Shown in pieces: positions 3,728 through 23,547 of a DNA stretch of 64,000 bases. Numbering within the stretch: position 1 is the first letter of the stretch; the number at the start of each line of letters is the position of its first letter. A program made the position numbers and the translations under genes. This stretch comes from Sulfobacillus sp. (GTDB taxonomy: Bacteria > Bacillota > Sulfobacillia > Sulfobacillales > Sulfobacillaceae), in the NCBI GenBank assembly GCA_027343695.1, contig DAHWKJ010000083.1:1-64000 (forward strand), read 5' to 3'. The notes beneath the pieces are model-generated. The model had not been told where the DNA came from and did not search any database. It saw only the letters and a list, made by a program, of their open reading frames with translations.

Positions 3728-4450
3728 TTAGCCGGCATTCACCAGACCGGCGAGATACGGGAGCACGTCATAAATTGGTCCGGTTAATACGCGATGCAAG
3801 AGGTCCGGTGCCAACTCTCCCTCACCCACCCACCAGGTCTGCATTCCGACGGCCAGGGCAGGGCGGATATCCTCTTCAGGGTCGTTGCCCACCATCAGCC
3901 AGTGCCGAGGATTAATATTGAATCCGGTGGCTGCCTCTTGATAGTAAGCTGGGTGTGGTTTGGACGCATGGACAATCTCAAAACAGGAGATCCAATCGAA
4001 GGGAAACCCTTCGAGTCCCGCCCAGCGCAATCGCTCTTCAATCGCCACACGAGGAAATAGGGGACTCGTGAGTAAGGCAATCTTCAGGCCTAATTCCCGA
4101 ATGTGAGCCAAAAAACCCATCATACCAGGTATGGGTCTTCCGAGGTACTGTAACTTCGGAAACTGATCGCGGTAATACTCTTCAAATACTGTTTGGACCG
4201 CCTCGGGATCTAGTCCGGTACGTGCCTGCAAGTGTTCATAAAAAGCATCGGCCAAGAGACTCGGTTCATGATTTTGCGACACGATCCACCGAGTGGTGGC
4301 CATAACGTCTTGAGACAACGTCTCGGCGATGCCTAGACGCGGTGCAATCCACCGATCTACGTCAGCCAAATAGGTCGGGATAAATTGGTTGGATAGCCGG
4401 AGCAGCGTGCCATCGAGATCGAGCCCAAGGGCCAGAATGGTACTTTTCAT
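3728..4450 (-). CDS. HAD-superfamily hydrolase
   Basis: LGLDLDGTLLR, ALLTSPLFP, KPHPAYYQEA, MVGNDPEEDIRPA HAD motifs. Confidence 0.9.
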   Translation of the reverse strand: MKSTILALGLDLDGTLLRLSNQFIPTYLADVDRWIAPRLGIAETLSQDVMATTRWIVSQNHEPSLLADAFYEHLQARTGLDPEAVQTVFEEYYRDQFPKLQYLGRPIPGMMGFLAHIRELGLKIALLTSPLFPRVAIEERLRWAGLEGFPFDWISCFEIVHASKPHPAYYQEAATGFNINPRHWLMVGNDPEEDIRPALAVGMQTWWVGEGELAPDLLHRVLTGPIYDVLPYLAGLVNAG

Positions 4451-19796: not shown

Positions 19797-20726
19797 ATGC
19801 CAGAAGTACTTGCAGTCATCGGTAACCTGACCGAACAATGGCAACACCGTATCAAAGAGTCCAGACCCGACCTTACGATGGTATTTTATTCAGAGCCCCA
19901 CGATCTGGAGAATCATCTCGATCCACGCATTACGATATTAGCGGCCGGTGGTGGGCGCGTCACCCGCGCCATCTGCGAAAAATTGCCTCACTTGCGATGG
20001 CTTCAAACCTTCTCGGCCGGAGTCGATGGGGTGGTCCAGGACCTCGCCCCGCAGGTCACCATTACCTCAATGAAAGGATTAAACCAGGTTGCCGTGGCGC
20101 AACATGCGATGGCATTCCTACTGGGTTTGACGCGACTCGCGCCGAATCCCCCCTCCACGCCTCGCTCCCACCTGGTCCCCCTACGTACGTTAGAGGGTAT
20201 GCGACACCTGATTGTGGGATATGGACACATCGGCCGACAAATTGGAGAATATAGCTTGCATTTCGGGATGACCGTAGAAGGCATCAGCCGTAGGGCCAGG
20301 CCGGACCAAAACGTCGCGACCTGGTCTGAATTAGATCGGCGAATTGGGCAAGCCGATGTGATCACCTTAGCCTGTCCATTGACCGCAGAAACCTCGGGAC
20401 TTATCGATCGCAATCGGCTGCAGCGCATCAAGCCCGGCGCGTTTCTCATTAATATCGCCCGAGGAGAAGTCGTCGACCAAGATGCCCTGGTTGAATCGTT
20501 GACCGCAGGACATTTAGGAGGAGCCGGGCTCGACGTCACCACTCCCGAACCCTTACCCTCCGGACACCCCCTGTTGCAGTTTCCTAATGTCCTCGTGACG
20601 CCCCATGTGGCCGGAAACCTCCCCGACTACATGGATCGGGCCGCGGCCTGGCTAATTGACAATCTCGAACGGGATCGGGATGGACGCCCTCTCTTAAATG
20701 TGGTGAACCGTTCCGATGGTTATTAG
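19797..20726 (+). CDS. D-isomer-specific 2-hydroxyacid dehydrogenase
   Basis: LIVGYGHIGRQIGEY, TLACPLTAETSGLIDRNRLQRIKPGAFLINIARGEVVDQDAL, LVTPHVAGN; start at 19797 with AAGGAGA RBS. Confidence 0.93.
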   Translation: MPEVLAVIGNLTEQWQHRIKESRPDLTMVFYSEPHDLENHLDPRITILAAGGGRVTRAICEKLPHLRWLQTFSAGVDGVVQDLAPQVTITSMKGLNQVAVAQHAMAFLLGLTRLAPNPPSTPRSHLVPLRTLEGMRHLIVGYGHIGRQIGEYSLHFGMTVEGISRRARPDQNVATWSELDRRIGQADVITLACPLTAETSGLIDRNRLQRIKPGAFLINIARGEVVDQDALVESLTAGHLGGAGLDVTTPEPLPSGHPLLQFPNVLVTPHVAGNLPDYMDRAAAWLIDNLERDRDGRPLLNVVNRSDGY

Positions 20727-21532
20727 CCGTTGCGCTTTAACGTCCCGCGATGCATCGCCCAACGTTCTGCCGTTTGAAAAATGATCAACCCAACGGGAAC
20801 CAAAATGAACCCAGACAAAAAAAGCTCGAGGGAGATGCCTAACAGTGACGCAAGGGGTCTCCCCCCCAAAATGGCTTGGCGGGATGCCTGCAAGGTGTAG
20901 GTGGCCGGAGATCCGTAGGACATCCATCGTAGCCAACCCGGCAGCACCGACACCGGATAGTACACCCCCGAGACCAACAGCAACACCCCTTGAATGATTT
21001 GGGTAGCCTGTGCCCCACGCTCGGTAGACAAGAGCGGGAGCACGGCACCCATTAAACCGAGTCCAATAAAGGGAAGCGCTGATGCCGTCAGGACGAGAAG
21101 GGCTCCAATCCAATCAGCCCGTTGAATCGAGACGTGGAAAAACATCATCACTACCGCCAAAATAATGACAGTGCGGACAAGTCCATATAAGACGGCATAA
21201 AGACAGACCCCCATCAAGTAGGTTAGACGATGGATGGGTGCCATAAAACTATATTCGATAGTCCCCTCCCAGCGTTCCCACGAAACCGCATTGGAAATTT
21301 CCTGAAAAAGAATCGAGAGAAAGTTCCATAGCAAGGCGCCAATAGCCAAGAACACCACCGTATGGGCACGCTGACTAGGCGGCAAGGAGAGTCCAATGAG
21401 CCCAATGGTCAACGTGTTTATCACGTTATAGAATAGAAATACGACTTCCCAGCCGGCGTACCGCCGGATCAAATGAAAATTACGGCGTACAATAGACCCC
21501 AGTGCGCGTGCTTCACGTTCGACGGCAATCAT
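20723..21532 (-). CDS. ABC-2 type transporter permease
   Basis: six-TM hydrophobic ORF directly downstream of ABC ATPase. Confidence 0.9.
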   Translation of the reverse strand: MIAVEREARALGSIVRRNFHLIRRYAGWEVVFLFYNVINTLTIGLIGLSLPPSQRAHTVVFLAIGALLWNFLSILFQEISNAVSWERWEGTIEYSFMAPIHRLTYLMGVCLYAVLYGLVRTVIILAVVMMFFHVSIQRADWIGALLVLTASALPFIGLGLMGAVLPLLSTERGAQATQIIQGVLLLVSGVYYPVSVLPGWLRWMSYGSPATYTLQASRQAILGGRPLASLLGISLELFLSGFILVPVGLIIFQTAERWAMHRGTLKRNG

Positions 21533-21561: not shown

Positions 21562-22383
21562 TTAAGACGATTCTTCCACATCATTCTCTAAGTCCCGACC
21601 CGTTAGTCGGAAAAAGGCGTGCTCCAAACCCTGGCCTTCGCCCCACTTGGCCACTAATTCATCAGGCGATGCGTATGCGACAAACTGCCCCTCGTCAATA
21701 ATGGCAATCTGATCGCAAAGCCGTTCGGCTTCAGGCATGTCATGCGTTGTGATTAGAATCGTCGCATCGTGCTCCTGACGAACCTGCAACACAAAGTCTT
21801 GCACTTCACGGCGAGAAGTCGGGTCTAATCCCGTAGTCGGCTCATCCAGTAACATCAACGTTGGAGACGTCAAGAGCGCCCGAGCTATCGCGATTTTTTG
21901 CTGTTGACCGCGTGACAGATTTTCTAGGGGCACCACGAGTTTTTCGCGGGCCAATCCCAGACGTTCAAGAATACGAGTAGCGTCCTTCTGCGCTTGATGA
22001 TTCGGTACGCCATAGAGCCCTGCCGCATAGGCCAAGTTCTCCCGCGCTGTGAGCTTTTTAAAAAAGCTTGCTTCCACCGATACCCGATTGATCAGGCGCC
22101 GCACCTTCATGCGATGCTCCAAGACATCCAAGCCAAACACCCGGATAGTGCCCTCGTCCGGAATCAGGAGTGTCGCCATCATCCGGATCAAGGTCGACTT
22201 ACCGGACCCGTTGGGTCCCAGTACTCCCAATATCTGATGACGAGGAAGCACCAAGTCAATCCCCTTGACCGCGTGGGTAATCGTTGCCGTGCGATGCCAC
22301 TTATTGCGCTGTATCACTTTAAAGGTCTTACCGACCCCACGACATTCGATCGCTGCAACCCCTTCCGAAATCTTTACAGACAA
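21562..22383 (-). CDS. ABC transporter ATP-binding protein
   Basis: GPNGSGKST Walker A, LSRGQQQKIAIARAL signature, LMLLDEPTTGLDP Walker B; TTG start behind AGGGGGCG. Confidence 0.95.
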   Translation of the reverse strand: MSVKISEGVAAIECRGVGKTFKVIQRNKWHRTATITHAVKGIDLVLPRHQILGVLGPNGSGKSTLIRMMATLLIPDEGTIRVFGLDVLEHRMKVRRLINRVSVEASFFKKLTARENLAYAAGLYGVPNHQAQKDATRILERLGLAREKLVVPLENLSRGQQQKIAIARALLTSPTLMLLDEPTTGLDPTSRREVQDFVLQVRQEHDATILITTHDMPEAERLCDQIAIIDEGQFVAYASPDELVAKWGEGQGLEHAFFRLTGRDLENDVEESS

Positions 22384-22411: not shown

Positions 22412-22438
22412 AAAAAACCGACCGGACATTCCGGTCGG
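22412..22438 (-). terminator. intrinsic terminator/attenuator upstream of ABC operon
   Basis: minus strand CCGACCGGA-ATG-TCCGGTCGGTTTTTT, 9-bp perfect stem plus T6, 29 nt before the ATPase start. Confidence 0.9.
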
Positions 22439-22457
22439 CACGCGTGAACTCCTGATC

Positions 22458-22532
22458 CTACCTGAGAGGCAGAGTCCATCTGTGCCGAGCCCATCCAACC
22501 AACCCGGAATCAAAGCGAATGGCCATACGCAT
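22458..22532 (-). CDS. 24-aa leader peptide MRMAIRFDSGLVGWARHRWTLPLR
   Basis: ATG with AAGGGGGAG SD about 8 nt upstream, ends just before terminator; absent from ORF track because short. Confidence 0.65.
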   Translation of the reverse strand: MRMAIRFDSGLVGWARHRWTLPLR

Positions 22533-22548
22533 GACGAACTCCCCCTTT

Positions 22549-22568
22549 CTAATAATGGTAATTATTAG
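22549..22568. promoter_or_regulatory. inverted-repeat operator in promoter region of ABC operon
   Basis: CTAATAAT-GGTA-ATTATTAG perfect 8-bp arms; TTGACA (minus) at 22591-22596 upstream. Confidence 0.6.
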
Positions 22569-22701
22569 TAGAGCATGGGCCAGGCCGCCGTGTCAAGTGT
22601 TTTTTCAGGAATCGCAACGGTTATCGTCCGTACCATATTCCGCGGCCAAGAATCACTTTCTTTCTCCTATCGCCGACATCTTGTGATAGGATGATGGCAC
22701 T

Positions 22702-23547
22702 ATGCCAAATACTTTTGCAGAAGCACTGGATACTCTCCTCGCTGACCTCTTGGAAACGGTACCACTCCGCTATCGATGGCTGTTGCTACAAACCCTCTAT
22801 ACGGGGTCTAGCCGTCGCCAAGGAATCAGTAAACTCGCCCTGCAGCCGGGATCGCAAGGCCTTGATGTGGGATGCGGATTTGGCGCCATGGCCATGGAAA
22901 TTGCAACGGCCTGGTCCTGCACCGTAGATGGGGTCGATTGCGACTCCACCATGTTAGAAATGGCCCGATCGCTGAGTGCGCCCATGACCTGGTTACAGGA
23001 TCGGGTGCATTGGATATCCGGGGACATCCTAGCACTGCCTTATCCTGACCATAGCCAAGACTTTGTCTGTACCCGATTTGTCCTCCAACATGTATCCGAT
23101 CCGAAAAGAGCCATTCAAGAAATGTATCGGGTGCTGCGCCCGGGCGGCTTTGTCTATATTGAAGATATCGATGAGGGCATGGTCCTGCAGTATCCCGCTC
23201 CACCACCGGAATGGAGTCTGGTACTCGACGCGTTCTCCCGATTGCAACAAGCCCGCGGAGGAGATCGTCAGATTGGCCGTAAAATTCCAGTGTGGCTGGC
23301 TCAAAGCGGGTTTGAGGTGCAATCGATTGAGCCGCAATGGATGGCTCAGGTAACTCGACCCGAGCCCAATGGCCCCGCTATCCAATGGGAAATCGAACGG
23401 GTCGCGCTCGAGTTAGATGCGCTCTATGCGGCCCAATTGCTGACTCCGGAAGAGTGGCAAAAGGGCCATGCCAGGTTCCGTGATCCGATCGCAGACATTT
23501 CGTTCCAATCCAATGCGTCCCTACAAATCCGAGCCCAGCGCGCTTAA
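22702..23547 (+). CDS. class I SAM-dependent methyltransferase
   Basis: GLDVGCGFGAMAMEIA motif I, DFVCTRFVLQHVSDPKRAIQEMYRVLRPGGFVYIED. Confidence 0.92.
   Translation: MPNTFAEALDTLLADLLETVPLRYRWLLLQTLYTGSSRRQGISKLALQPGSQGLDVGCGFGAMAMEIATAWSCTVDGVDCDSTMLEMARSLSAPMTWLQDRVHWISGDILALPYPDHSQDFVCTRFVLQHVSDPKRAIQEMYRVLRPGGFVYIEDIDEGMVLQYPAPPPEWSLVLDAFSRLQQARGGDRQIGRKIPVWLAQSGFEVQSIEPQWMAQVTRPEPNGPAIQWEIERVALELDALYAAQLLTPEEWQKGHARFRDPIADISFQSNASLQIRAQRA

Follow-up and report, generated by a model that had tools for sequence, protein, structure and literature searches.

The attenuator of the Escherichia coli trp operon uses pairings between segments 1:2, 2:3 and 3:4 in a three-state logic, and the same logic can be read on the minus strand of a 64,000-nucleotide stretch of Sulfobacillus sp. 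DNA (contig DAHWKJ010000083.1, positions 1 to 64,000; hereafter the window), where a 24-codon leader open reading frame (ORF) and an intrinsic terminator precede a predicted ATP-binding cassette (ABC) exporter operon. The locus differs from trp in having no repeated sensor codon, in a segment 1 that includes the leader Shine-Dalgarno (SD) sequence, and in its target, an exporter. In Bacillus subtilis, ribosome-targeting antibiotics induce bmrB-bmrCD, likewise a ribosome-mediated attenuator before an ABC exporter (PMC4191407, where the trp attenuator is also mentioned); the window's operon may plausibly respond to antibiotics. BmrCD is, however, a heterodimeric exporter of another family, and the bmrB leader of 53 amino acids (aa) has the terminator structures inside its ORF (PMC4191407), whereas the window's leader has 24 aa, its terminator follows the stop codon, and the leader SD is an arm of an anti-antiterminator. 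The vmlR leader of B. subtilis contains the same parts (leader ORF, anti-antiterminator, antiterminator and terminator) and leader stalling leads to readthrough, but its upstream ORF has three codons (Met-Ile-Asn), its SD is single-stranded, and it controls an ABCF ribosome-protection factor instead of a transporter (PMC9226507). Mef(E)L of mef(E)/mel and ErmDL/Erm(K)L are also short leaders, with transcription attenuation (mef, ermK) and an Arg-X-Arg stall motif (PMC4335068, PMC8298421); many relatives of the window's leader share that motif, whereas the window's own leader has none at its N terminus and precedes a different target. The 'ABC-leaders' of Naville and Gautheret are attenuators predicted in bulk upstream of ABC operons, among these a multidrug export operon of lactobacilli, but no leader peptide is described for them and they come from other taxa (PMC2965389). 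The window's attenuator is distinct from the known ones in target family, in taxa and in having the leader's own SD serve as an anti-antiterminator arm, while the kind of mechanism is already known; no publication on it was found in the literature searched, of which coverage was partial.

Very probably, the locus is a ribosome-mediated transcription attenuator before an ABC exporter, in which a ribosome stalled early in the leader by impaired elongation turns the operon on. It comprises the following elements.

22567 to 22596, minus strand: putative promoter TTGACA-N18-TCTACT, read from sequence
22539 to 22548, minus strand: leader SD AAAGGGGGAG; the 42 class loci with a leader have an SD at its start
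22533 to 22542, minus strand: segment 1, the 3' half of the SD plus spacer, GGAGTTCGTC, 5' arm of the anti-antiterminator, from co-variation with the leader 3' end and from SD accessibility
22458 to 22532, minus strand: leader ORF MRMAIRFDSGLVGWARHRWTLPLR, 24 codons plus stop, from the ORF and its SD, with pS > pN and no indel relative to G001
22471 to 22480, minus strand: portion of segment 2 pairing with the SD region, GATGGACTCT, from co-variation
22472 to 22488, minus strand: 5' arm of the antiterminator, TCGGCACAGATGGACTC, within the leader ORF, from folding and stem co-variation
22435 to 22451, minus strand: segment 3, 3' arm of the antiterminator, GAGTTCACGCGTGCCGA, overlapping the terminator 5' arm, from folding and stem co-variation
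22412 to 22439, minus strand: intrinsic terminator GCCGACCGGA-ATG-TCCGGTCGGT plus T-run, 10 pairs including one G-U, hairpin -17.8 kcal/mol

An earlier sequence-only reading had placed an SD, a 24-codon leader ORF and a T-run terminator ending 29 nucleotides (nt) before the TTG start of the ATPase (22383) on the minus strand, and all are present there, the terminator stem having 10 pairs where that reading had counted 9. The match it had drawn between TCGGCAC (22482-22488) and GTGCCGA (22435-22441), the latter overlapping the terminator 5' arm, is an exact complement. What it had taken for a separate second hairpin (GGACTC..GAGTTC) is part of the same structure: TGGACTC/GAGTTCA stacks on TCGGCAC/GTGCCGA, so that TCGGCAC-aga-TGGACTC pairs with GAGTTCA-cgc-GTGCCGA as one antiterminator (22472-22488 with 22435-22451). 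An alternative register (GGGCTC/GAGTTC plus GGTTGG/CCGACC) is isoenergetic, both registers having -33.2 kcal/mol compared with the value given above for the terminator hairpin alone, and either one sequesters the terminator 5' arm. A third helix, absent from the earlier reading, joins the SD region (22533-22542) to 22471-22480 as an anti-antiterminator.

The switch thus has four segments, namely the leader SD region (1), the leader 3' end (2), the post-stop RNA (3) and the terminator 3' arm (4). From these computed parts we infer translation, stalling, termination and readthrough as follows. During normal translation, the ribosome would reach the leader stop and mask segment 2, allowing the 3:4 terminator to form and keeping the operon off. 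If the leader were left untranslated, helix 1:2 would form and hide the leader SD, segment 3 would be free for the terminator, and the operon would again be off. Upon an early stall, which in the window means codons 2-9, segment 2 would be exposed and segment 1 blocked or crowded; helix 2:3 would then form before RNA polymerase makes segment 4, pre-empting the terminator and permitting transcription of the exporter.

The arrangement recurs across the class. At the cut-off applied, a search of 154 of its genomes yielded 54 orthologous ATPases, and the upstream DNA of all 54 was inspected. By inspection, an ORF of 12-34 codons with its own SD, closing ahead of a terminator 5' of the ATPase, is present at 42 of the 54 loci; of the remaining 12, five are without an attenuator (G006, G014, G009, G010, G017), five are ambiguous (G048, G052, G086, G110, G127) and two lie on cut-short contigs. 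Leader ORFs were chosen by hand from candidate lists, and 41 distinct leaders from 18 genera entered the tests. Leader peptides are unalignable between genera and the architecture is retained; within genera, leader length is nearly constant, the frame is kept and there are no indels. In the nearest relative (G001, leader region 83% identical), the leader also has 24 codons, with no indels and 79% identity, and the synonymous and nonsynonymous differences from the window (pS 0.35, pN 0.19) are few and, taken alone, weak. The sequence-only reading had named a terminator conserved without its leader ORF as the outcome that would tell against it; position, frame and length of the ORF are kept, and the peptide sequence is not.

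Similar layouts were also seen outside the class. In Thermomicrobia-type relatives (L051, L054, L055, L059), leaders of 43-45 codons stand before a terminator with the ATPase downstream; RLR occurs in all four examined (VRLRMPG, WLRLRDAG, ARLRMREL, GRLRVPG), the C-terminal motif [IR]-[SR]-[LV]-P-G is common to them, and the terminator 5' arm pairs with the leader end. A Fraserbacteria relative (L046) has a 15-codon ORF ending in RLDRLR-stop followed by a terminator-like hairpin, where folding is little affected by ribosome position.

For co-variation of the helices, segments were taken from each locus without the use of any predicted structure (SD region from -18 to +4, the leader's last 51 nt, and 45 nt after the stop), and the energies of cognate duplexes were compared with cross-genus pairings (20000 permutations) and with dinucleotide shuffles as a control for base composition. 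The cross-genus permutation was used for helix 1:2 because strict column alignment was ruled out, its register being offset by one, with a bulge, from g1 to g11. The genus mean for 1:2 (SD region with leader end) came to -23.0 kcal/mol versus -16.9 (standard deviation 0.77), and for 2:3 (leader end with post-stop RNA) it was -36.1 kcal/mol versus -31.4 (standard deviation 1.08), with 0 of 20000 permutations as low in either case; the combined z against dinucleotide shuffles over the 18 genera was -9.85 for 1:2 and -4.83 for 2:3. Examples of helix 1:2 can be picked out by inspection, such as GGAGATCCCA/TGGGATCTCC (G030), GGTCGTTGAA/TTCAACGACC (G058) and CCGAAATG/CATTTCGG (G012). Helix 1:2 takes in part of the SD, and the predicted accessibility of the SD accordingly drops from 0.51 to 0.30 after the leader end is transcribed (15 of 18 genera). 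Among the six closest sequences, three pairs of the 2:3 stem differ in both partners, and 82% of cells are paired, compared with 18-44% when the partner is slid; the sample is small and the shuffle control modest (covariation score 6/500, count of doubly changed pairs 58/500). Layout and pairing together exceed chance, with recurrence at 42 of 54 loci and co-variation well above the cross-genus and shuffle controls.

The dependence of folding on ribosome position was followed in transcripts ending in the terminator loop, folded 3' of a ribosome placed on each codon in turn (leading edge +16). With the ribosome at codons 2-9 of the window's leader, the terminator 5' arm is pre-paired (P 0.70-0.98) and the total energy is -27 to -33 kcal/mol; at codon 12 this has weakened to -12.7 kcal/mol, and at the stop about -2 remains. 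Most relatives shown follow a similar course, although the pairing probability near the stop is not always zero because short local pairs persist. The proposal of ribosome-mediated attenuation in the sequence-only reading is well supported by the retained position and frame of the leader, the co-varying helices and folding that tracks the ribosome.

While attenuation is the likely mechanism, an antibiotic is a plausible signal, since many antibiotics would stall a ribosome in the leader. The inducer and the substrate, which we infer from the same features, would be one ribosome-targeting compound that impairs elongation and that the pump helps to remove. Arg/Lys-X-Arg/Lys is a ketolide/macrolide arrest site known from ErmDL, Erm(K)L and Mef(E)L (PMC8298421, PMC4335068), and it is present in residues 2-10 of 17 of the 41 leaders (41%) versus 7% of the 238 ordinary ORFs taken from these loci; weighted by genus, this amounts to 8.4 of 18 genera versus 2.95 in shuffled leaders (0/5000). 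The window's own leader (MRMAIRFD...) has RHR at codons 16-18, located on segment 2, where a stall would mask that segment. The antibiotic-induced drug export suggested by the sequence-only reading is thus putative: the motif is enriched among relatives but absent from the window's own inducing stretch, and the pump is only DrrAB-like, with scores below the curated cut-offs. Pro-rich leader C termini (SPP, TPP, TPR-stop) were set aside as a peptide arrest motif because they coincide with segment 2, because CCG and CTG alternate there among close relatives (TPP/TLP), and because a stall at that point would mask segment 2 and leave the operon off.

The same attenuator might instead respond when an amino acid or a charged tRNA runs short. 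Arginine would be a candidate, given the Arg-rich N-terminal codons: 27% of leader residues 2-8 are basic, compared with 12% of the remainder and 11% in control ORFs. However, the leaders lack the conserved single-codon run of the trp or his type, the peptides cannot be aligned between genera, arginine is absent from the first ten residues of some leaders (G012, G032), and an exporter would be an odd target, which together make such a signal improbable.

Several observations weigh against the favoured reading of the locus as a ribosome-mediated attenuator. Ten loci are without an attenuator or ambiguous, and both the class-wide ORF choices and the duplex segments were picked by hand. Single loci vary, 2:3 being non-significant in g14, g3, g21 and g86 and 1:2 missing in most of g53, and the window's leader has no Arg/Lys-X-Arg/Lys in residues 2-10, the inducing stretch. 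Moreover, when the complete RNA is folded at equilibrium, the terminator dominates almost everywhere; full-RNA folding was dropped as an uninformative test of the switch, and pre-terminator RNA was folded instead. Because the terminator is favoured at equilibrium, the switch must be kinetic, decided before segment 4 is made. A terminator that forms almost whatever the ribosome position would also suit a separate small gene, made of the short ORF and its terminator, followed by an ABC operon with its own downstream promoter and no attenuation, for which terminator-to-ATPase gaps of 150-250 nt in some relatives (G018, G024) would offer space. Such a gene is highly improbable here: the window's gap is just 29 nt, the co-varying 1:2 and 2:3 helices would be left without purpose, and the peptide sequence is not retained between genera. 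Although alternative terminator and antiterminator folds are also found in riboswitches and aptamers were considered for other 'ABC-leaders' (PMC2965389), a riboswitch or protein-bound attenuator with an incidental ORF is the least credible of these readings, as an Rfam scan gave zero matches at the attenuator locus, a conserved unpaired core across genera was not seen, and 42 loci retain the SD-led ORF, its frame held and its length nearly constant within genera.

Downstream of the attenuator and divergent from it lie the following genes.

21562 to 22383, minus strand: ABC ATPase, TTG start, DrrA-like (Pfam PF00005; TIGR01188 231.7 bits, cut-off 312.45)
20723 to 21532, minus strand: ABC-2 type permease, weakly DrrB-like (Pfam PF01061; TIGR01247 43.7 bits, cut-off 223.05)
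22702 to 23547, plus strand: class I methyltransferase, divergent from the ABC operon

Judged from these domains, the target operon is an ABC exporter consisting of an ATPase and an ABC-2 permease, and the pump is by sequence a relative of the DrrAB daunorubicin exporter, not a member, as both NCBIfam scores lie well under their curated cut-offs. With kinship to DrrAB this distant and scores under the cut-offs, 'drug exporter' is a guess. Among solved structures, the ATPase matches general ABC ATPases and the permease has zero sequence matches; those relatives of the ABC locus that have names come from Sulfobacillus and allied Bacillota metagenome-assembled genomes (MAGs). In the G018 MAG (L034, ~4218-4221), the permease ORF is split into two overlapping frames, by a frameshift or an assembly error. 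The ABC operon is flanked by the methyltransferase and a 2-hydroxyacid dehydrogenase in g1 and g11, and the methyltransferase adjoins the ABC pair in g1, g11 and g9, the last being without the attenuator; the divergent methyltransferase may share the function of the ABC pair.

Upstream, promoter-like hexamers similar to those of the window, with identical spacing, occur in G001 and G011; a consensus promoter scan of the window did not list TTGACA-N18-TCTACT, which has a weak -10 and an 18-nt spacer. A perfect 8-bp palindrome, CTAATAAT-TACC-ATTATTAG (minus strand, 22549-22568), lies between the putative promoter and the leader SD and is possibly an operator; it was rejected as a component of the switch, being only partly kept in G001 and G011. 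A DNA similarity search of the genome (2.88 Mb, 107 contigs) returned no second copy of the element. Elsewhere in the window, 63052-63183 matches the ribosomal protein L10 leader (RF00557) at 45.3 bits, barely over the gathering score.

We tentatively suggest that the locus may belong to a class-wide attenuator family, mirrored by comparable layouts in Thermomicrobia-type relatives. In this family the leader SD would double as an anti-antiterminator arm, an idle leader would lock both its own translation and the exporter off, and only early arrest by a tunnel-binding drug (with Arg/Lys-X-Arg/Lys leaders in many lineages) would open the switch, the peptides turning over freely while the RNA switch persists. 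If attenuation of this kind is true, about 40 natural variants of the leader would make the rules that link leader sequence to stalling in one switch directly testable. An antibiotic-type translation sensor would then have been retained throughout a class of bacteria that are mostly uncultured and have been little studied, on an exporter family with none described in the literature found, and environmental bacteria of this class would be predicted to encounter ribosome-targeting compounds.
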